Below, in pieces: positions 3,206 to 61,046 of a stretch of 64,000 bases of DNA. Below the pieces are notes generated by a model. The model was not told the DNA's origin and searched no databases. It saw only the letters and a list, made by a program, of their open reading frames with translations. Each line of letters opens with the position of its first letter. Within the stretch, counting starts at the first letter, position 1. Both the position numbers and the translations under genes were made by a program. This DNA is from Paragorgia papillata (lineage: Eukaryota > Cnidaria > Anthozoa > Scleralcyonacea > Coralliidae), in contig JAWNZC010000421.1 of NCBI GenBank assembly GCA_035771165.1, positions 3,388,501-3,452,500 of the forward strand, given 5' to 3'.

Positions 3206-5924
3206 ACAAAAAAGAAATTATTATTATTAAGAGGTCTTTTAACCCACGGTTTACTGTTTTATCAGTTGTAAATAATTCAAATTGACAATGGTTGATGAAA
3301 AAAAAAATTCCAGCTCGTCCATTCATATTTGTCTACTTGAAAAATATTGAAAAAATCAAATGCACTGTTTATAATATTAACTATAGGATCTACTTTAATG
3401 TAATAAATATTTTCCAAGAAATCTCTTTGTAATGTAATTCTTAAAAAGCTCGCAGCGCTACACTCATAATTTCATCTTTTTAAATTGAGAGTAAAGAAAT
3501 ACCAAATGGTTTTCCGTGTTTGGATAGTCTGATCCAAACACGCGGGAAATTGCGAGACTGGAGAAAAGCGTAACAAAACACGAGCCGTAGGCGAGTGTTT
3601 TTAGCTTTTCGAAAGTCGAGCAATTTCCCAAGTGTTTGGATAAGAGTCTCCAAACACGGAAAAGGCTATTTGGTATTTCTTTTATAAAATAATCACAAGT
3701 GAATATGATATACTGTCCGACATTTTCAAGAAATCGTTTTGGCGGGAATATTCCATGTTTGGATACTCTGATCCAAACACGGCAATTGACCAATCAGGGC
3801 TCGCGTAGTATACATGTTATTTTATAATAACCGTTACCAACACCTTTGGGGGAAAAAAGAAAGAAATCCGGTTGTCCTGATTGGTGGACGTTCGTCAAGT
3901 TCAAATAGTTCTGAGCTCGAGACAGGGATCTCGAGAAATGAAAATTTATAGTCGTATGACATGTACTACTACTGTACTTTGTAAGCACGCGATAGCCGTT
4001 CGTATATATATATCTCAAACTCATTAATAATTCATGAAGAAAACACAAAGGAAATCAGTACCGTGTCGATGGTTTGGATATCGGAGGAAGAAATTACATA
4101 AATTAAGCAAACTTTCATCTTGATTTTCTCGTAAAATACTGATTTGTTTGAGATTCTCGGTGTTTGGATATCCTGATGAAACACTCCTCCTCGTGTATGA
4201 TATATTACATATGAGATGCGGTTGGTGTGGTGTAACGATACACTACAGTACATCTCATACAAATGCCCGCCGCTTAGGAAGAGCTAAGGTTGAAAATTTA
4301 TAGTCGTATGACACACACATATATAAGTCTTTGAACTTTTTCTATAACATGCTCTGGATTTCCATTGAGCACCCTGCCAACGGTTTTTACTACATCGTCT
4401 GTAGTATATATATATATATAACTAAAGTGAAACTTTTTCAGTTGCCTGATGATCGCTTAACGCGTGAAACTCGGAGTAGCAACGTTCATTTTATTAAATA
4501 AAATATATATATATATATATATGGGATTGCAGTTCAAGTGATGTTAAACGTGGTACAGTACATCTCATACTAATGCCCACCGCTTTGGGAAGCACGTATG
4601 CTATGAATTAGTAACCTTAGCTTCAGCAGCTCAATGGTTGTCTTGGACCAATTTTTTTAGTATCACTGCGTACACTGTACGTCATGTGACCAAATGTACG
4701 CGTGCCACACTGAGTCAAACTTTATAACAAATTAATTCACATCCGCTTTAATAATCTCTGTATTTGGAATATAATGTGTTGAATTTCAACGTGTGTGCTC
4801 CCCTGTTCGTACCCAGAACACTCGATCTGTAACTGGCAAATAAAAATGTTTGTTGCCAAGCAAGAGTTCTGATCGAAATACACAACATCTGCTGTGCCAG
4901 TGACTGCGGCTTATCAACTCAAGCTGTAATAACTCGAGGAGAAATTCGTGTTGTAAATAACTAAACGGTTATCTCAGCATGATTTATCTGTAGACTGTGG
5001 GTTTATCAATCAGTCTACTCTTCCAATCTTAAATAATACTATGTTAATCTGAACTAGCTGGAGAACAGCTACAACCCACTTGGGTACGATGTTTTTGAAA
5101 TCGATTCAAATAAATATAACTTGTAGTAAGTCGATGCACAACAAAAATCGTTTCAAAGAGACCCCTTTAGTCACCATGCGTGAGAAAGTTATATTTTTTA
5201 TCTGAACTTCGGGAAATGTGGTTCACCTCAGCATGTTTCATTAAACATGTGTACACTTCAGATAAATAAATTAACCAATCCGAACGACAATTAGTGAAAA
5301 CAGAGGTCACGGTAGGACAAACAGTTGCTAGGGATAACAAATTATCGTAGGACGTAACACATACTGAGAGAATGTAGATTGCATTATTGCCTTCGTGATT
5401 TCCGAGTCGGTTGTGGATATTAATACATATTATTGTTGAATAAGAGTAGATGTACCGACTGCTGTCGTCTTTTTAGTCGTATTTAATATTGGTTTATTTA
5501 AATCGAGTTTCGTGTTTATCTTTGTGCTCGACTTGCTTGCTGTAATATTGCATCAATAATCATTTCAAAGGTTGTTCAGACATAATGGGATGTAGCTTTG
5601 TATAATGATCGTCAAAGACCGCCTGATTGTTTTTGCGTGCACAGACAGTGGACAGGAAAAAGACGTTATCTGGGATTTTTTTGGTTAGTCGATATCAAGT
5701 TTATTGAACTGGGTGCATTCGAGGTTATTGTGTTTACTTCGTCAATTGAATGTAGCTGCCATATACAGCCGGTCTCGTCTCGCGTTTATCGTGTGTAAAT
5801 TGGCAAATGGCCCAAACGCGTAGCTATAACACATCTATTATCTGAAGTCTTGCATTGCATTGTATTGTATTGTCTGCTGTTTATTTCGTCTGGGGTTCCT
5901 CTAAAGGGGTTATTCTCTGCGCCA
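3206..5924. other. Intergenic region between USP and NCKX
   Basis: No gene seen. It holds a foldback repeat at about 3490-3690 (arms AAGAAATACCAAATGG and its mirror), several copies of a GTGTTTGGAT...ATCCAAACAC motif (3515-3785, 4065, 4160), a stretch at 4015-4070 shared with the inner arms of the 42.6-44.2 kb element, and (TA)n runs near 4400 and 4500. The 5' leader and promoter of NCKX must lie in the right part; I see no decisive promoter motif. Confidence 0.6.
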
Positions 5925-8900
5925 ATGTATAAACTTGCCCCATCCCGTCTTCGAAATTCAATAGCGGTGTTTTCTATGGCTGGCTTATTTGTTGTCCTCA
6001 CAGCTGTATGCATAACATCAACGACATTTAACAACTCGAGTAGTAATCTTGAACTAGTTGTTATAAAGAAGAGATTCTCCCGTAGTGCTCCTCTAGCCAA
6101 CGACACGAACACAACAAGTAATAACATTGAAAACCCATCAAGAAAAGACGAATACCCTGATGATTTATTCTCCTTGAAGGACAAACAACAGGGGGCTGTA
6201 ATATTACACGTTCTGGGATTAGTCTACATGTTTTTAGCTCTCGCGACCGTCTCCGATGAGTTTTTTATCCCGACTCTAGAAGTTATCACGGAAGAATTTG
6301 CTGTTGCAGAAGATGTGGCTGGAGCAACATTTATGGCGGCTGGCGGTAGTGCTCCAGAGTTATTTACTTCTCTGATTGGAGTTTTTATCGCAAACTCAAA
6401 TGTCGGCTTTGGAACGATTGTCGGTAGTGCTGTATTTAATGTCCTTTTTGTCATTGGCATGTGTGCCGTGTTTTCAAAAGGAGTCTTACAATTAACATGG
6501 TGGCCTTTGTTCCGTGATTGTTCATTCTATATCCTTGCTTTAACATTACTCATTGTTTTTTTCTTAAATGATCGAAGCGGGACAAGGTCGAAAATCTACT
6601 GGTGGGAAGCCTGTGTGTTAATGGCTTGCTATTTTCTCTACGTTCTTTTCATGAGGTACAATTCAGAACTTGAGATGTTTGTAAAAAGAGTGATTTTTAC
6701 TCGCAGAGTAGAAGATGAATCGATTGTTTTATCAAAGAAAGCAAGCCCTCGAGATACAGACTTATATGTACAGGTGAGAGCAATGTAACAGAGTCGTTTG
6801 TCTGAGCGCCAGACGATTTTCCTCATCAAAGGAAGCCGGGGAGGTTCCACCGTCGGGAAGGAGTTAACTTGATAACTCATCCTTTTCCGGGACTTTCCCT
6901 TTAGAGATGAATAAAATCGTCTGGCGTTCGCCAAAAAAATATATAATAGTATTAAAGTACTTGCTGACAGAAAAGAGTTAAAGAGATTTAATGAAGGATT
7001 AGAAAGGGTTTTATAACTCCTTCCAGGAGAAGGTCCAAGACTTGATAGGGTGAATATCGTCTGGCGTTAGCCAGAAAAAAGTGCACCACATATAACTGCG
7101 GATACGAAAAAGTTGGAGAGATTTAATGAGGGATTAGAAAGGGTTTATAACTTGATCCTATCCCGGTCAAGGTCCGCAGGGCTTTTCCTAAAGATGAATA
7201 AGATCGTGTGGCGTTATTAACCATGTAAAATAAACTACTTTGCCATAATAATACAATGCTAAGTACTTATGCAGAGAAGAAAGAGTCGAGGACTATATAT
7301 GTAATACTCTTAATCCTAATTCTTAACGAGTAACGGAATCATGCCTTTGCAGACGATTTAATGCAACGTTTAATGTAGGCTTTCTAACGTTACGCGCAAT
7401 GCTGGGACAATTTTGCTTTGGCTACTGTATGCGGCATGCATATAGTCTCCTTTGGCAGCTGCTGCGTAGTCTTAGGCCCCGTTTACACTAGATCGGCAAA
7501 AGTATCCGGATTCACATTGTTTTTTATTCCCATGAGGATGAAAAACAATGTGAATCTGGATACTTTTGCTCTATAGTGTAAACGGGGCCTTAGACGAAGA
7601 CTGTCCATATATGTGTCATTATAGTGGGTAAAACTTTGAATAGTCTAAATTCAAAAGGAACAAAACAAAAATGGCTGTGGATATTGAGTGAGGATTCAGT
7701 TCTGTTTAATTCCTTGTCCAAGTTCTCCTTGGCGACATAAAGTAGTATACGATTTTCGTTGCCGAAGAACCGACATGTGGGCCTGCTTTTAATGCTTTTT
7801 TAAGGAAGCCCGTCTTGACCTTGTCATGGAAAAAGTCGTTAACACATGAGAAAATAATACTTGCCAAGGAAACTGCCGCGCGCAGAGCTTAAAATAGGCA
7901 AAAAATATATGCATTAAACTCATTGCTGCTTTGTCTGAGTTCCCTTTGGCGAACGAAATTGTCTGGTGTTAGACAGAGTTAAACAATGAAAGGGGCCGTT
8001 TTTGGTCAGCTCAGGCAGGAATGATTAATACATGTCCTGCAACGCACCAAGCGACCGGTGCAAGACATCTCCAGTATTGTCAAACAAAAAGAAGCAATTT
8101 ACACATCGGAGTCAAATTAATACGACTGCAGACCGAATTAGAAACTGTCGGAAAACAGATGGCAGGAACTTTAATTGAAAATAAATCCTAATTGAACCCT
8201 AAGGTCTTTTACAGACATGACCAACTTTTACCTCGCTGTAGGATTTGCCTCTGATAAGTTGTATTTTCCGTTTGTGCGACACAAATTGACAGGCTGACCG
8301 CTTGACGAAAAGTCTTGATCCAAAACTGGTCATGCCAGGCCTAGTTCCTTATCAAGGGAAATTTGAGTGTGTTTCGTTCAAGCAAGCTTTGGCAAGCTCT
8401 GCATGTACAGTATTTATCTTAGAAAAATAGTGAATGAAGTGATTTTGGATAAGAAAATACTGAGCAAAAATCGATTCTTTCTCGAGTATATAAATTATCA
8501 GATAAAATAAAAACAACACAATATATATCGGCGGAAAAAGGGCGTGTGAAAAATCAGTGACCAAGATAAATAAACTTGAAGAAACAGCAGATGGTTTTTG
8601 ACAGTTATAGATATTGCTCAACAATTATTACAGGATATTTTCAATCATCTCTCTGGGATGTTAATTAAGAAGTTTAACAAGATCAGTGAAAAAGGCTAAT
8701 GAAAGATAATGAAGATTTTCCGGCAGTTAGAACATTTCAAATTTTAGTTGACATTGACAAGTAATTTGTATTTTTTTGGCCAGTTGAGGCTGATGAGTTT
8801 GAAGATATTCGTCGGAAATGGCGAATTTTTTTCTCAAAGTAAATATTTCCTGGAAAATCAATTTATCTATACATGAAAACTTTCAAAGAAAATCAATAAT

Positions 8901-11900: not shown

Positions 11901-14900
11901 TGCAAGCAAATGATGTCGAAAAAAAATATCCTGCACAACCTCGAGCGAAAAAAAAATATTCCTGCACCAAAAAATTGGCCAACCCCCCCCTCAAAAATCT
12001 AATGGTCCGTCCCTTAGCTTCATGCGAGTAGAACTGTTGGTTCTCTCCTATGCTTCGAGGGTTTTTCACTGAGTTTTCCAGTTTTTCTCCCTTCACAAAT
12101 TCAACACCAGTTTCCTCAGTTAATTCTACGAACTAGTTCCATCAAGGCCAGGGGTGAGGGCCACCAGTATCTACGCGCTGAGTCTCAATCAATACAGGCG
12201 CTTTATTAGAGAGCTTCAGCATATTCGGCGTTTTTGAGACACGGACGGTGTTGACCGGAAGAACAGGAATACAATACAGAACTACTGAACCGCGTATTCT
12301 TTGAAGACTTTTTCACCCAAAACAAAGGCTATGAATAATCACATATCTAAACTGTTAGCTCATAAGCTTAAATTTCATCTTTATTTAAAAATACAGATCC
12401 TTTATTTTATATTGTAATGTAATGAAATTATCCCCCTTAAAATACAAGTTTTCTACTTTAAAAGCATGTCTATTGTAGTAAAACAACGATGACAGGCCTC
12501 AACGTTCTAGATGTTCCCGTCGTCTCAAGAACGTGAAAATGCTCTCAACGACGTCTTGTGTAGAACGACGACGGCGTTCACTTTGCTCTTGGAATTTTAA
12601 ATTGCTCATTATCATTGTTTTGAATGAAAAATGCTATTGAATTCAATCGCCGTCCGTGGCTCTAAAACGCCTGTATGCTTAAAGGGACACTCTACCCCCC
12701 AAACAAGTGGTGTTCATATGAAAGGTCTATATGTACTTACTTTGGAATGGGTATTCATTTCCTTCAAATCTTTTTGGTTTTCGAGAAATTTGACTTTGTT
12801 TGTCGTATTTTTGACACACTGTAGTCCGCCATGTTCGCTTTGCTTGCGGGCGAAAGCGGTCGCTCCCATTAGCGTTTTGACGTCATTGAGTGATAGAAAG
12901 AAATTGTCCTTCGACAGCGTGGTGTTTCATTAGCATAAACATCTTTGGTTTATCGGTTTATACTTTTTACAATGCCTCATTGCATGGTGCCCGACTGCAC
13001 AAATAATTCACGCAAGACTGCGGGAATAAGTTACCATCGACTTCCTGCAGATGATCGACTGCGACAAGCCTGGCTGGCCAGAATTCGCCGTACTAATCCA
13101 CGTTCGCGCAGCAACTCGTTTGTTTGTTCGGAACATTTTACGCCTGATTGCTTCGATAAAACTATACCTGGATTAGTGGCTGGCTACCAGAAAAGGAGGA
13201 AACTGAAAGGTAATTCGCTTCCATCAATATTTCCTCGAAGATGTGCCGAAAAACCTAGAGTTGCCAGCGAACGAAGAAATTTCAGAGCCTCCAGACAAGA
13301 GGTATTGCCGGCTGTAACACATAGTTGATTTGGCGGAGTTTATACGTTGTGTATATATATTATAAATACTCGTACATATTTAAAAAATAAATAAAATTCA
13401 AAACAAACACAATGACTAAAGTTTGTTTCTATGTGTTTATTGTAGTTAAATCCAGACATTACATTCAGACATTACATTCAGACATTACATATTTTCTTAT
13501 TATAAGATGTTAGACAACCTTGTTTCATTCGAAACAACCTCAAAGGCAGAATATGTGAACCCAATACCTTGCGAATCACCTGAAAACTCTGCTAGTAGCG
13601 CTAACGATGTAAGTGAAATGCAATTCACCGATGAAGATCTTGGGCTGGCGAGTATCGAAGAATGCAAATCGTCTGAAGGTACTTGTACTGATGCTCCTTT
13701 AGTTTTATCCTTTGCTGAAGACTGTGGCACAACAACAACTACAACTGATACTGAGATCCAATGTGAACTGTTAGTGAGAGCAACTAGAAGTGTTGAAGTG
13801 CAAACGGAACCTGTACTTCTTGCCTGTCAAACAGATAACAACCCCCCAAGTCCACATGAAGTTACACATTCTGTTGGAGTCTGGAAGTCTACACCATTTG
13901 CCAAAAATATTGCTACAAAACCTAAGCCGAATAAATCAGCAGCAATTGCAAGCCACATCAGCAGATTTAAGCAAAAGTGAACAGTTATCTGTTTTAACAC
14001 TTGCCTAATTACAAAGGTCGCAGATCAAGGTGATTAAGTCAAAGGTATATTAATGGCACCAAAAAAGTAGAATGCTGCATAGGCAGTGTTTTGAATATAG
14101 AAAAGTTAATAGGTTGTGAACTGCCGAGAATTTTGAGGAATGAAATACTGATGTTTCCGACCACATGCCCATGATAAACAACAATTTCTTAAGGTATGTA
14201 TGCCTTTCAATACTCAAAGTATATAATGAAGTATAATTAATACTAACAAATAACAAATGACAACTAAATAATATATACATGTAATTATACAAAGGTGATG
14301 TTTAATTTTCCCCATCAGACGCTTCCCTATGCCCAACAAACACATGTTCATCTTCCGGTCCAGGAGGTGGAAAATGCGCTCTAATACAGCTTACTGCACA
14401 AGAGGGAAGCACAACTCTCACATGCCTTCCAAGTACTCCCCAGCCTAATCGTGCAAGTTGTCTATATGCAATATGCCTGTGCTTTTGGTGTTCTGGTCCT
14501 TCATAAGCATTCTCATATTGTTGCTTATACTGGTACCATGCTGTTCGAAGAACCCACTGATTCAAACACACAACTGAGAATCCAGGGTTATCAGTTATGC
14601 AAGAAATATTTGTTTTTAATTTTTCGAGGACCACCGCTTCTTCGTTGAGGGAGATCATCTCGGGGATTTCTTGGCAACAAACACACTCTACCACTGCATC
14701 CATCATTTGACAATTGCCACACTGACACCTAACGTTGCATTAAAGCATATTCAAAAAGAATACAAACGAAGAGTCTTATTATTTTTCTTTGCTCGCAAAG
14801 TGAAGTCTTTATATTTATATTTATTGATATTTATATGTATGCATTTAAATTTGAAGAAGTCACTAGCCGACAAACAAATCAGTATACATTTTAATACTCA

Positions 14901-17472
14901 AATATTTATGAACAATTATGGTCACACTTTACAAGAGATTATGTTGTTGTTTTAACTTACCATTCTAAGTTATCCAAACGGCTTTCGTCAACGGATAAAT
15001 CCAAGTTTTCTTCGTCAGTAGAATCGTCATCAGAACTAGACGAAGACACTGTTTTGGTAGGCTCAAACTGGTAGGGCTGTATCGAGTCGATAGAGTACTC
15101 TGCTTCCTCGGCTGGACTGCCTGGACTATTTGAACGGCACGACATTGCCATAGTATCCTCATTGTCGGAAGAGCTACTACTCGATCCGGACATTTGTATA
15201 TTTCGACAATTTCTCCGTTTTAAATACAGAAACAACAACCTCCATAAAAGAAAACACAGACGCTCGTGGATTTTCTATCACTCAATGACGTCAAAACGCT
15301 AATGGGAGCGACCGCTTTCGCCCGCAAGCAAAGCAAACATGGCGGCCAACAGTGTGTCAAAAATACGACAAACAAAGTCAAATTTCTCGAAAACCAAAAA
15401 GATTTGAAGGAAATGAATACCCATTCCAAAGTAAGTACATATAGACCTTTCATATGAACACCACTTGTTTGGGGGGTAGAGTGTCCCTTTAAGCTCTTTA
15501 TTATGGGAGAAAGGACATATAAATCATCATGTTTTTGAGGTATCAAAGGTTTACTATCGAATGTTTTAGATTGAGTTGCCTAGCCCTTTGGACCTGAGTT
15601 GGCCGACAAGCTTCAAAGATAGAATTGTGTACATCATCCGCGCTCCAATAATATTTGCGTTGCACTTGACTTTGTCGGACGTACGCAAACTGGTAAGAAT
15701 ATGAGAAGAAAGAAAGAAAGGATGTAGCAAGGAAGGAAGGAAGAAAGGAAAAGAGGGCGAAAGGAATCACATGTGATTTTGGAGCACGTTCATGTGGAAT
15801 TTTTGTAAGGGAAGGGAGGGATGGGTAGGAAGAAACGATGGAAGGAAGAGAGGAAGGAAAAGAAGGTGAAATGAAAGAGAAGGAAGGAAGAAACGAACGA
15901 AGGAGGGAAGGGAGGGGGAAGGAGAGGTGGAAGAGAGAGGGAAGGTGGTGAAAGGAGGAACGGAAGGAACGAAGGAGGAAAGGAGAGAGAGAGAAAAGAA
16001 GGAAAGGAAAAAGGAAGACGGAAAAAAGAAAGGGAGGGAAGGGAAGAGGGGGGGGGGGGGGGGGAGATGGAGGAAGGGGCGAAAGAAGTGAGGAATGAAC
16101 GAAGGACGGATGGACGAACAGACAGACAGACGCACAGAAGAAAAGGGTATCGGAACAGAATTCAATATGTACCTTATTTTCATTTTCAGGAGAAGCGTGG
16201 AAGATATCCTTGGACGTTTTTTGTTTCCATATTGTGGATCGTAGTGTTTTCTTACTTTATGGTGTGGTGGGCAAAAGAAATTTCCGTAACCATGGGTATT
16301 GACGACGAAACAATGGGTCTCACAGTGTTAGCAGCAGGGACGAGTATTCCTGATTTAATTACAAGTGTTTTGGTAGCGCGAAAAGGTTATGGTGACATGG
16401 CTGTTTCCAGTTCTGTTGGAAGCAACCTTTTTGACGTCACAATAGGGTAAAATTTGCATACATTGTTATGGATATATCTCGACATAGTCCCTAGAAATAA
16501 ATTGTCTGGAAACGCGACCAAAGTCTTTGTTCTAGGTTTTTGTTCACGTTTGTGCACCTTATTTCACCTTAACGCTTGCTGAACGCATTGTATTTTTGGT
16601 ATAATGAAGCAATCAACCAATAGCAGCATTGCTTTATAAATATTAATGAACGTAAAACAAAAGATTGTGCACCTTATTTGCCACCCTCAACCTAAATTGT
16701 AGCTCATTGTTAACCGCTTTGATGTTCGCCGCGTCTCCAGACAATATAATTCTAGGGACTATGATCTCGATGATGTTAGCGTGGTGTCTCTCACCGCTTA
16801 AGTTAAACCAGGTAGAATGGGGTTAGTACTTGGATAGGTGACCACATTAGCTTTATGTGAGTAGAATTACTGATTCTCTCCTGTGCCTCAAGGGTTTTTC
16901 ATCGGGTTTTTCTCCCTCCACAAAATCAACACCATAGTTTCTCCAGTTAATTATTTGACTAATCATCGACGTTCACTGGTGACTACTAAGGCACGGTAGA
17001 GGGTAGGTTGTAGAGTTCCACTCTTAGATACCAGAATATTCAAACCAGATGCCATTATGAAAGGGACATTCAGTTTTGTAGTGGTCTCCACTCGTTTTTG
17101 AGGCTTGAAGAGTACACGGTTGGTCATTTTCCTTACGAGTTTCCTTGGTAAACTAACCCCAAAATTTCACGGCGTATTGTGTTGTAGAAATCGTTGGACT
17201 ATAGTATTTTTTCTATTTATTTATTTAGGCTTCCTTTACCGTGGCTAGTGTGGAGTGCGATACACAGTGGACGAGCATTTGAAGTGACCAGTAGTGGTTT
17301 AACCTGTTTAACCTGTATGCTTTTTGTCATGCTTTTAGCAGTCGTGATCTCCATTGTAGTTTGCAAGTGGAAAATGAGCAAAGCATTAGGTGTCTCAATG
17401 CTTCTATTATATGTCGGTTTTCTGGTGTTCTCAGTACTACTACAGAAAGACGTTATTAGTTGTCCACTCTAG
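5925..17472 (+). CDS. K+-dependent Na+/Ca2+ exchanger (SLC24/NCKX family)
   Basis: Plasma-membrane antiporter that extrudes Ca2+ (with K+) against Na+. Exons 5925-6773, 9590-9689, 10074-10420, 16190-16446 and 17229-17472 give 598 residues. The start is the first ATG in the open frame; the frame extends upstream only without an ATG. Seen: a hydrophobic signal-anchor (about 13-32), an N-glycosylation-rich extracellular segment, the alpha-1 repeat (about 134-178, GGSAPELF with Glu145, then VGSAVFN), a Ser/Thr-rich cytosolic loop of about 185 residues from exons 2-3, and the alpha-2 repeat (about 475-520, AAGTSIPD, then GSNLFD). The Asp in SNLFD (about 514) is the one linked to K+ dependence in NCKX2, so K+ dependence is expected. 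Which SLC24 paralogue it matches is not clear. AATAAA at 17862 is a candidate poly(A) signal. Confidence 0.93.
6785..7215. repeat. Cluster of GTCTGGCGTTAG foldback repeat fragments
   Basis: Four copies of an ATCGTCTGGCGTT(A/C)G-type motif in the first NCKX intron, with linked GACTTTCCCTTTAGAGATGA-like sequence. The same family recurs near 2090, 7960, 33070, 46290 and 63160-63470. The rest of the intron (7600-9589) shows only AT-rich sequence, with weak repeats of AAAAACTTGTCAA near 8975-9225. Confidence 0.7.
7472..7592. mobile_element. Harbinger-like MITE with TTA target duplication
   Basis: Hairpin element starting GGCCCCGTTTACACTA (7475) and ending TAGTGTAAACGGGGCC (7589), flanked by TTA on both sides (7472-7474, 7590-7592). 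The 115-bp body is nearly a perfect palindrome. A 3-bp TTA duplication is typical of PIF/Harbinger; the family call is inference. A half copy (CCCCGTTTACACAATGCC) is at about 50527. Confidence 0.8.
10585..12016. mobile_element. TIR element with TTA target duplication
   Basis: The inverted ends are GGGACGGACCATTAGATTTT (10588) and its mirror ending at 12013, flanked by TTA at 10585-10587 and 12014-12016. Many AAAAAAATATCCTGCA-type motifs lie inside. No transposase frame is visible, so it is non-autonomous; Harbinger-like by its TTA. It interrupts the SINE and is itself interrupted by a hAT-like element. Confidence 0.8.
10972..11411. mobile_element. hAT-like non-autonomous element (nested), copy 1
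   Basis: Starts CAGGCGCGCAACTAGGGG and ends CTAGTTGCGCCCCTG; AGTCT is repeated on both sides. Very similar in sequence to the element at 26408-26771 in NOL6. CAGGG...CCCTG ends suggest hAT; the family is inference. Confidence 0.75.
12972..13980 (+). CDS. THAP-domain protein encoded inside the Kolobok-like element
   Basis: Exon 12972-13301 encodes an N-terminal THAP zinc finger (residues 1-90) with the C2CH ligands Cys4, Cys9 and a Cys-x2-His in FVCSEHF (Cys about 53, His about 56), the conserved W of QAWLARI, and the closing SLPSIFP motif. These are DNA-binding domains typical of Kolobok and P-type transposases. GAG/GTATTG at 13301 and TAAG/ATG at 13506 allow an in-frame join to a second exon 13507-13980. 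That exon adds an acidic, Ser/Thr-rich tail with repeated QT(E/D)-type motifs (VQTEP, CQTDN) and a basic end, giving 267 residues. No RNase-H-like acidic core is seen. The second exon could be a separate small frame; the splice is my model. Confidence 0.75.
14302..15193 (-). CDS. P2X7 cytoplasmic-tail (ballast/zinc-cysteine) domain protein inside the element
   Basis: Exons 15193-14961 and 14728-14302 join in frame to 219 residues. Residues 1-77 are Ser/Asp/Glu-rich and disordered. From residue 78 comes WCQCGNC, then [43 protein letters not shown] and IRAHFP. This is the order of the Zn-coordinating Cys region in the cytosolic ballast of vertebrate P2X7 receptors and of the so-called P2X7-like proteins of invertebrates. 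The acceptor at 14729 (TTAG/GTGTCAG) completes the Trp codon of WCQCGNC, which supports the intron. No P2X channel part (no membrane helices) is present. It converges on the THAP gene and lies between the inverted ends of the transposon, so it is probably cargo. Molecular role unknown; Zn binding is inferred. Confidence 0.85.
15700..16078. repeat. GGAA/GGGA-rich purine tract
   Basis: About 380 bp of imperfect GGAA, GGGA and GAAA repeats with a G15-type run near 16050, ending about 110 bp before the fourth NCKX exon. Frames reading Pro/Ser/Phe-rich sequence on the other strand are artefacts. Confidence 0.9.
16476..16770. mobile_element. MITE with 7-bp target duplication
   Basis: Inverted ends CATAGTCCCTAGAA (16483) and TTCTAGGGACTATG (16763), arms about 33 bp, flanked by ATCTCGA at 16476-16482 and 16764-16770. 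It is in the last NCKX intron, directly before the second 5S-like SINE. Confidence 0.8.
16771..17000 (+). mobile_element. 5S-rRNA-like SINE, second copy
   Basis: Contains AGTTAAACCAGG then GGTTAGTACTTGGATAGGTGACC, which tracks 5S rRNA from the box A region to box C. It is followed by a unique tail shared with the copy at 10.5/12.0 kb. The 3' limit is uncertain. It is not a functional 5S gene, since the outer stem halves are missing. Confidence 0.65.
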
Positions 17473-29000: not shown

Positions 29001-32000
29001 CGTTGTGAATGGTGATGGAGTGAGAAATAAATAAGCAGTAATCAGTTCAATGCATTCCTCGCAAAAAAACGTCATTAACATATGAGACGATATCCAACGT
29101 TTTGTTAATCGAACACTGCTACCAAATGAGCTGTACTGTTGTTGGATTCTAGAAATAAAATACTAAAATTAGTGAGTCGGGATAGAGAGAGCTTTTGCAT
29201 TTTCAAATTATGAAGTAGTACGTTCTTACCCATGAATCATACTTGATAACAATGGAAGGTGAACAATTTCTTTTTCTAAATTCTTTGCATTAGCTTCATG
29301 AAGTTGTTTCAAGGAACCAATCCCTGTGCTTTGTTGGTATAAAATCATTTCACGATAATGACCAAGTTTAATACGAAATGCAAAACCATCCTAAAGAAGT
29401 TACAACATAATTATTTAGAATTTCAATAAATCAGAAAGACTCAATAATTTATGAGGGAAATGCAACAAAAATCATACATTAGTACTCACTTTAATAACGT
29501 CAATGTATTTGGTGTTAGCTACTGCAGGAAGTTGGCATTCTTTCCTCAGTAAGTTAGCAATATTAAGAAGAAACGCAGCTTTTATACGCTGAATAGCGTC
29601 AATATCATCTGGCCACTGACCACTTGTTTCAAACTGAATTAGAACTAAAGAGAGAACGTCAAAACTTATGGTTTTTACTGCGCTTTGTATTTGGGGGATT
29701 GGGTAGAATTTTAAAGCAACAAATACAGCAATACGTTCCATGGTAACAACAAGAAGAAACAACCACCAACACCACCAACAACAACACCACCAACAATCAC
29801 CACCACCACAGCCAACACAAAAAATCACCACCACCAGCCAGCAGCCACAGCAACACCACGAATGCACAAAATATTTCTGTTCTTGCATACCTTCACTTAC
29901 TGGGCACCATGTTGGAGCCTTCTTTGATTCCACAGGAATAGTGATATCTTTTTTTATATTATGCTGAACATCGTGCGCACTATGAAAGCAAGGCACTGGT
30001 GGGAAAACCTGCAACAGGAAATGAGCATAGTTTGCATGAAACGCATCGAAAAATAGAAAAGCCGATTAGCAAAATTTAAAATTGGTATAACCATAGGAAT
30101 AAATCCACCTTGATGCTAGCCATATTTCAAAAAACATTTTCCAACCTAAGTCGTCCTGGTCAACACACAATAGCATACCTCAGTTCCACGTAGCACAGGA
30201 GATAATCCTTGAATTGAATTGATAGATAATGGTAACGGTAAACTCCGTAACTGTTTTCCTAACGACTCAAATGTACGGATTACAGTTTGAATTGCTTCCT
30301 CTCCTGTTCCACTTTCAAAAACATTGTCTTTCTTTTTGTTTTTAGACTTAGACACTACATGCTGTTCTAATATTGATTCCAATTCATTTGAAATGAAGAC
30401 AATTTGTGAAGGGTCAATAGCACCATGTCTACAAAAAAGATGTATTTCATGTTACTAAATATTCCTACTAGATTGTTGCGGTGACATCGCACATGTTCAT
30501 GATTGATATTTATTATGTAAAAGCAAAACTACTTCACCTGTTTAAAATATCTTTTATAATTTGTTCACAAATTTTTCTTTTTTCTGAAACATTATTACAC
30601 GTCCAAACGACAGCCTCTGAGATAGAACCATCTTGAAATCGACGCAATTCTGACTTTTCACCCCAAAACTCTCTAAAGATCTTTGCCTAAACATTTTATT
30701 TTAATATTATTAAGGGGAAACACGTTGTAAGCAAACAAACAAATCTAGAAATGATCTAAACTGGTTTGTCTACCTCAACATGATCTGCGCTTGGTCCTTT
30801 CTCCAAAATATTCGTAGCATTATCTGTGTTTAGTAAAATACCAACAGTAGCAGAATGTTGACTTGCCAGAGGAGGCTTCTCTTTTAATGGCCACTACATT
30901 TAGTACAAAATAATAATAGACAACTAAAAATTAAGAACTAGAGACTTAATGTAAAATAATTGTATTGTAGCTGTGACAATACCACCACCACCACCACCAC
31001 CAACAATACTACTACAAGAACAGCAACAACAACAGCAGCAACAACAACAACAGCAGCAACAACAGTAACAACAGCAGTAACAGCAGCAACAACAGCAGAA
31101 ATAACAGCAACAACAACAACAGCAGCAACAACAGCAGCATTGAACAATAGCAGCAGCAACAACAACAACAACACATACATGCAACTACCTTTGGAAATGT
31201 TTCAGGTTTAAGAGCTAGGAGTTCAATTCTATTTCCAAGAGCTTTTGTAAGAAGTTTCTCCAGCCAAGACAAACCCACTTTTGCTGTGTCCCCAGCTCTG
31301 TCAGCCAACTCAGAATCAAGATGCAGATTTTCAAGGACAGTTTTAAAGACTCCAACATCTTTAAGACTTAGGAAAGAGACAAGTTATTGAATAAGATTTT
31401 GTACTCAAATATATATTATACAACAACTTCAGGCAATACTATACACTGTGCATAGTTACAAACTGCATCTCAACCTACCAAAAGAAGTTATCAAATCTGG
31501 TAATAAATGGGATAGTCTTCATAAACAAAGAATCAAAGCCATTCACACTGTGGCTATCAAGAATATCTAGTGCAAGCTTGGCTTCTTGACTCAACTAGAA
31601 CAGAGTGTAAAATTTCATGTCATATATAGAAATACCATTATTACCAACAGCTATGTACAGTACTACTTATGTTTTAGATACTGTACATAAGTTTCCACTC
31701 TAGTTTTGGAAAAACTTACTTGTTTAAATGTCATTTTTGTCATGCTTGCAAAAAGATTGAGATATCCTGAAGAATCAACAAAAACTACTTCAAATGCATC
31801 ATGGAAATGACTTAGAGAGGGCTGGAAAAAAGAAACACAGAAATATAAAAATCTCTACAATAACATTCACTGATAAATTTTCTGTAAGCAATGATCTCAT
31901 AAAAACAAAACTATACTCTTCCACTAACCATGTGATCATCAACAAAAGATTTTTGATCCAACATTGAAACACCAACTGAAGTTAAATCCTTTGATGCTGA

Positions 32001-60397: not shown

Positions 60398-61046
60398 CAT
60401 GTTTCATTTTATCATATATATATATATATATGATATATATGCAACGCTCACTACCCTTGTGGAAGTTTGAGCACTCTGGGCCCATGCGCACTTCACGCTA
60501 TCTGAATGTATTTCACCGATGCTGTCCCACATGCGGCTGTCACCGACGATCGCATGTGTATAAGTAATTGATGAAATTCATTCAGATTGTTCCAAGCTAC
60601 ACTGATGAGCTGTTGAACAGCGAAACACCGTGTCTGTAGATTGAACTATGTACGCTCCTTCACTTCGGTGTTGTTGAGCACTCTGTGAAGTTGCCGTGGG
60701 TACCTATTAGCGATAATGCAACGCTCACTACCCTTGTGGAAGTTTGAGCACTCTGGGCCCATGCGCACTTCACGCTATCTGAATGTATTTCACCGATGCT
60801 GTCCCACATGCGGCTGTCACCGACGATCGCATGTGTATAAGTAATTGATGAAATTCATTCAGATTGTTCCAAGCTACACTGATGAGCTGTTGAACAGCGA
60901 AACACCGTGTCTGTAGATTGAACTATATATATATATAAATATATATATATGATAAAATGAAACATGTTGGAACTTAATCAATCAATCAATAAATCGACCA
61001 ATCAAGTCGATTAATCAACCAATCAAGTCGATTAATCAACCAATCG

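Follow-up and report, generated by a model that had tools for sequence, protein, structure and literature searches.

Kolobok transposons are marked by a TTAA target-site duplication and by 5'-RR/YY-3' termini, the latter setting them against piggyBac (PMC9587614), and their transposases carry a THAP domain at the N-terminus (PMC6004289). Members of the Kol0 lineage encode, next to the transposase, a protein named KolX, which P2X7 is proposed to have captured (Kojima & Bao, 2022; PMC9587614). In that paper's account of KolX, those P2X7-tail proteins of animals that stand alone belong to transposons, nanor as well as P2X7 is proposed to descend from KolX, and no function is given for the protein itself (PMC9587614). 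For the P element, a 66-kDa repressor that retains the THAP domain and is non-catalytic has been described, as has repression by KP, a protein of 207 aa encoded by a P element with a deletion (PMC7776569).

The window analyzed here, a stretch of 64,000 nucleotides of Paragorgia papillata DNA, contains an element of 2814 bp (12679-15492) with TTAA on both flanks and inverted ends of 217 bp. Two genes are predicted inside it, both spliced and in convergent orientation, one for a THAP protein (267 aa, + strand) and one for KolX (219 aa, - strand). We regard it, with a probability of roughly 0.6, as a Kol0-kind Kolobok with KolX whose transposase core was lost, most likely via one in-frame internal deletion, and whose predicted short THAP protein would likely compete with the full transposase. 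The kind of element and its pairing of a transposase gene with KolX are already known (PMC9587614). The new part is the state of the transposase gene, in which the core is missing while THAP and KolX are kept, and in the open-licence literature searched, no core-deleted derivative with both THAP and KolX was found.

Comparison with described systems

With the Kol0 lineage (Kolobok-1_XT type), the element shares the TTAA duplication, the RR...YY termini, THAP-bearing transposase relatives and a KolX with the P2X7 ballast (PMC9587614), from which the window copy differs in having no transposase core: what it retains is the THAP end, some of the disordered linker and the final 31 residues, among them the C-terminal helix in the model of the relative P0132. 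Like the KP element of Drosophila, a P element with an internal deletion, it has kept its two ends along with the DNA-binding N-terminal part and misses the core, here through a deletion deduced from relatives. The KP protein retains the THAP domain. Unlike KP, the window element belongs to another superfamily (TTAA) and retains a second gene, KolX, as well as the transposase C-terminus, and repression by its product is suggested by analogy.

MITEs are not known to contain genes, whereas the window copy carries two predicted ones. T2-MITE and XKol of Xenopus have in common with it the Kolobok superfamily, whose transposases there carry DDE, THAP and H2CH, and the occurrence of recent non-autonomous copies (PMC6004289). 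The C-terminal ballast of the P2X7 receptor belongs, as KolX does, to PF20478, with CQCGNC, CIT, RHxAYR and LPSC present in both; KolX, in contrast, lacks the channel part and is a transposon protein in its own right.

Borders and layout of the element

Features of the element in the window (positions count from the first letter of the window)
Feature	Position	Strand	Evidence
Left TTAA target-site duplication	12679..12682		
Left terminal inverted repeat, 217 bp, starts AGGGACACTC	12683..12899	+	218/221 positions (with TTAA) match right end
THAP gene, predicted exon 1, THAP domain residues 4-87	12972..13301	+	PF05485 E=3e-18; C2CH = C4, C9, C52, H55
THAP gene, predicted intron, GT-AG	13302..13506	+	Full-length relatives P0140 and P0241 continuous across join
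THAP gene, predicted exon 2, part in common with transposase linker	13507..13881	+	117/125 residues identical to P0121
Putative deletion junction, Trp codon between both retained parts	13882..13884	+	P0121 similarity stops before, P0131 identity starts after
THAP gene, 31-aa end common to transposase C-terminus, with stop	13885..13980	+	31/31 identical to P0131 end, tblastn E=1.2e-14
Spacer segment	14062..14157	+	76-81% identical to five stretches of 120-bp tandem array at 2417-2995
KolX gene, predicted exon 2, P2X7 ballast-like domain, with stop	14302..14728	-	PF20478; homologues; model against PDB
KolX gene, predicted intron, GT-AG, donor GTAAGT	14729..14960	-	P0008 continuous across
KolX gene, predicted exon 1, Ser-rich acidic N-terminus with PYQFEP	14961..15193	-	37.7% identity, 61 columns, P0008 residues 8-67, tblastn E=0.001
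Right terminal inverted repeat, 217 bp	15272..15488	-	
Right TTAA target-site duplication	15489..15492		

Counted with the TTAA, the inverted ends comprise 221 bp per side (217 bp without), and their three mismatches fall at 12823, 12825 and 12836 of the left arm. The element has AGGGACACTC...GAGTGTCCCT as its termini, and an exact TTAAAGGGACACT occurs in the window at its two ends only. Its AG...CT termini agree with the 5'-RR/YY-3' rule, its 4-bp TTAA duplication is that of Kolobok, and the termini, together with the retained cysteines, speak for this superfamily. The ends being nearly identical and the TTAA intact, the insertion is probably recent. An earlier note on this DNA had rightly proposed a Kolobok-type transposon between TTAA duplications and inverted ends, and also a recent insertion, to which the near-identical ends point.

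The start codons of the two genes lie 73 and 79 bp farther in than the inverted ends, which makes it likely that each end holds the promoter of one gene. The CRE palindrome TGACGTCA is found at 12878 and 15286, once per inverted end and 93-94 bp before each start codon; this placement may be due to chance, since the whole window contains nine copies.

On the + strand, regions matching Na_Ca_ex (PF01699) lie on either side of the element, within 5799-6785 (E=3.8e-30) and 15875-16447 (E=5.4e-24), which places it most likely in an intron of a sodium/calcium-exchanger gene. Elsewhere, the window has matches to ubiquitin hydrolase at 650-1180 (+; PF00443, E 5e-7) and to Nrap at 29475-30065 (-; PF17405, E 1.6e-15). 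The tandem array at 2417-2995, of which the element's spacer contains a diverged unit, consists of 4.7 copies of 120 bp and includes four CTGATGA..GAAAC motifs, with no hammerhead match in Rfam up to E 10. In the whole window this motif occurs eight times against 0.21 expected, six of them within two repeats. At 60575-60933, a direct repeat is present twice, 277 bp apart, each copy having pairing flanks around a hammerhead-like core, CTGATGA-GCTGTTGAACAGC-GAAAC. Its second copy matches Hammerhead_HH9 under the gathering score (E=0.0074), and the window has no Rfam match at gathering level; this repeat looks like one of the retrozyme type.

The THAP gene as a probable transposase gene without its core

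The spliced forms of both genes are sequence predictions, and both introns are of the GT-AG type. The predicted 267-aa protein contains a full THAP domain (PF05485, E=3e-18), and its splice join, which leads from RQE to MLDNLV, is uninterrupted in two relatives, as HKE-TLDHLL in P0140 and as RQE-TLDGLL in P0241. Shortly before the predicted acceptor, the intron has three similar 19-nt copies with a spacing of 13 bp (13446-13490).

Exon 2 as a whole (13507-13980) combines sequences akin to two parts of a transposase. Its beginning resembles P0121 (319 aa), which past the 125-residue match continues as transposase-like sequence, in line with the position of THAP at the N-terminus of Kolobok transposases (PMC6004289). 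Its end equals the C-terminus of P0131, a fragment of 264 aa in which these 31 residues follow on the core's second half, with its YDVWH and LEVYH. P0121 and P0131 lie on separate short contigs (2957 and 1679 bp), and neither is a whole transposase; since P0121 diverges from its relatives at its own end, this protein, too, may derive from a broken copy. No Pfam family is matched by either protein. The deletion is deduced from these two protein fragments, which may stem from a species other than that of the window and from different elements.

The motifs of the DDE core (GDGRxDSPGH, DxWHL, EVYH, WQSQP) are absent from all six frames of the element, EVYH occurring once elsewhere in the window, and the tblastn matches of P0121 and P0131 to the element are confined to the linker and the C-terminal tail. 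Because the DDE core with its C/DxxH and zinc-finger signature is missing, the element is a Kolobok derivative and not an autonomous member. The THAP gene is best read, from these sequence matches, as the transposase gene minus its core and not as a separate gene. The earlier note had rightly seen that no transposase core is visible and that THAP is a trait of Kolobok transposases, the likeness to P0121 identifying the gene as the DNA-binding end of such a transposase; its treatment of the THAP gene as a gene apart gives way to the matches to P0121 and P0131.

What the core would contain can be read from relatives. A search with a joined query found 214 of them, and among the best 120 of them, four (P0140, P0141, P0241 and P0243) have the C2CH pattern of THAP near the N-terminus; in the others, exon 1 was probably predicted apart. 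Under a strict expression, D, D, DxxH, H2CH and E follow each other in this order in 59 of these 120, and H2CH alone is present in 100. Across 32 relatives taken from these 120, D317, D384, D405, H464, H469, C480, H482 and E532 (P0132 numbering) are invariant and H408 almost so; D405 and H408 belong to the DxxH motif, and H464, H469, C480 and H482 to the H2CH finger. All of these conserved core residues of P0132 fall between the two parts retained in the window gene. Where THAP and core are found in one relative, it is far longer, with 782 aa in P0140, 783 aa in P0141 and 749 aa in P0241, so that the window protein has 482-516 residues less.

The model of P0132 shows disorder as far as residue 181 and is confident for the greater part of 186-657. 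Foldseek matches it best to the ISCth4 transposase (E 2.8e-6) and ranks the transposase of the P element sixth (E 1.4e-3). Of the solved structures, ISCth4 comes first, followed by foamy-virus integrase, P element transposase and Hermes, and the TM-scores are low.

The KolX gene

The predicted spliced KolX protein of 219 aa matches the intracellular tail of P2X7 (PF20478, E=3.2e-14). Its frame is uninterrupted and its cysteines are kept, and across the splice join the homologue P0008 reads DNLEWCQCGNC without a break. At E<=0.001, 222 homologues were found, the best 120 of which are listed. A profile built on KolX retrieves P2X7 chains from the PDB (best E 5.3e-6), and the predicted fold places P2X7 chains at ranks 1-14 in both lists of PDB structure matches, so that profile, fold and PF20478 agree on a second gene with the P2X7 ballast domain, as in Kol0. 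No relatives of KolX were found in the scans of viral and prokaryotic contigs. Between contigs that carry KolX relatives and those that carry transposase relatives, one size is shared (3752), with 0.37 expected by chance, which gives no clear sign that the two genes share a contig.

The convergent pair of a THAP and a P2X7-tail gene inside one element, which the earlier note had reported, is upheld by the two domain matches and the predicted introns. Its view that such elements are not known to include a P2X7-tail gene is contradicted by the description of KolX in the Kol0 lineage, and of its idea that P2X7-tail genes spread as transposon cargo, the part that ties these genes to the element stands, the free-standing tails of animals being transposon proteins, whereas chance cargo does not (PMC9587614).

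Explanations of the element

According to the preferred explanation, a single in-frame deletion that removed about 1.5 kb of coding sequence would have joined the linker to the last 31 residues of the transposase, leaving THAP, linker, C-terminal helix and an intact KolX. Such a copy would be immobile alone, yet it may be mobilized by a full transposase from elsewhere, as the ends are retained. By analogy with the P element repressors, the THAP domain of the 267-aa protein would attach it to the ends, where, unable to cut, it would compete with the transposase, and KolX, its frame being open, would still be supplied. A repressor role of the short THAP protein may thus be proposed by this analogy. 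That the element is a KP-like, self-limiting Kolobok, which has traded its core for a short THAP blocker of the full transposase at the ends and still supplies KolX, the ancestor of the P2X7 tail, which would then have an action of its own, apart from the transposase, at the ends or elsewhere in the cell, is a tentative proposal that we consider rather unlikely.

The main rival is an ordinary, defective, non-autonomous Kol0 copy, which we consider possible: the same deletion would be a random, abortive event, with the THAP frame open by luck, the product inert and the copy moved, if at all, only via its ends. Three mismatches in 221 positions leave little time for decay, and no second protein with the deletion junction is present among 11 matches, which gives no sign of KP-like amplification. 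The Har-P variant of the P element, which is short and unlikely to be translated, yet assembles efficiently with transposase in vitro (PMC6917496), adds to this account. Against it can be held that the frame is kept over the junction, that the THAP domain and the splice sites are whole and that KolX is uninterrupted, none of which requires selection at such an age; in a young copy, where a random deletion stays in frame in one of three cases, open frames prove neither selection nor function. The sequence evidence does not separate the defective copy from the repressor reading, and the deletion is common to both.

A host locus that retains the genes for the short THAP protein and KolX, with the ends as relics, would have parallels in the Kolobok transposases reported as domesticated in Xenopus (PMC6004289) and in the proposed descent of nanor and P2X7 (PMC9587614), but the near-identical ends and the intact TTAA point to a recent insertion and make such a domesticated locus very unlikely. 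The position of both genes within one pair of ends would also be expected if a THAP transposon had acquired a host P2X7-tail gene by chance, or through a chance nested insertion, which is exceedingly improbable: KolX is the described second gene of Kol0 Kolobok families, and the pair is therefore not chance cargo (PMC9587614).

Significance for KolX and P2X7

A copy with KolX and both ends but without the core naturally uncouples KolX from the activity of the transposase, and it allows the role of KolX, whether in end binding, repression or targeting, to be asked with and without the transposase. This role bears on why P2X7 acquired its zinc- and nucleotide-binding ballast. If the short THAP protein represses, the KP principle would extend beyond the P element.
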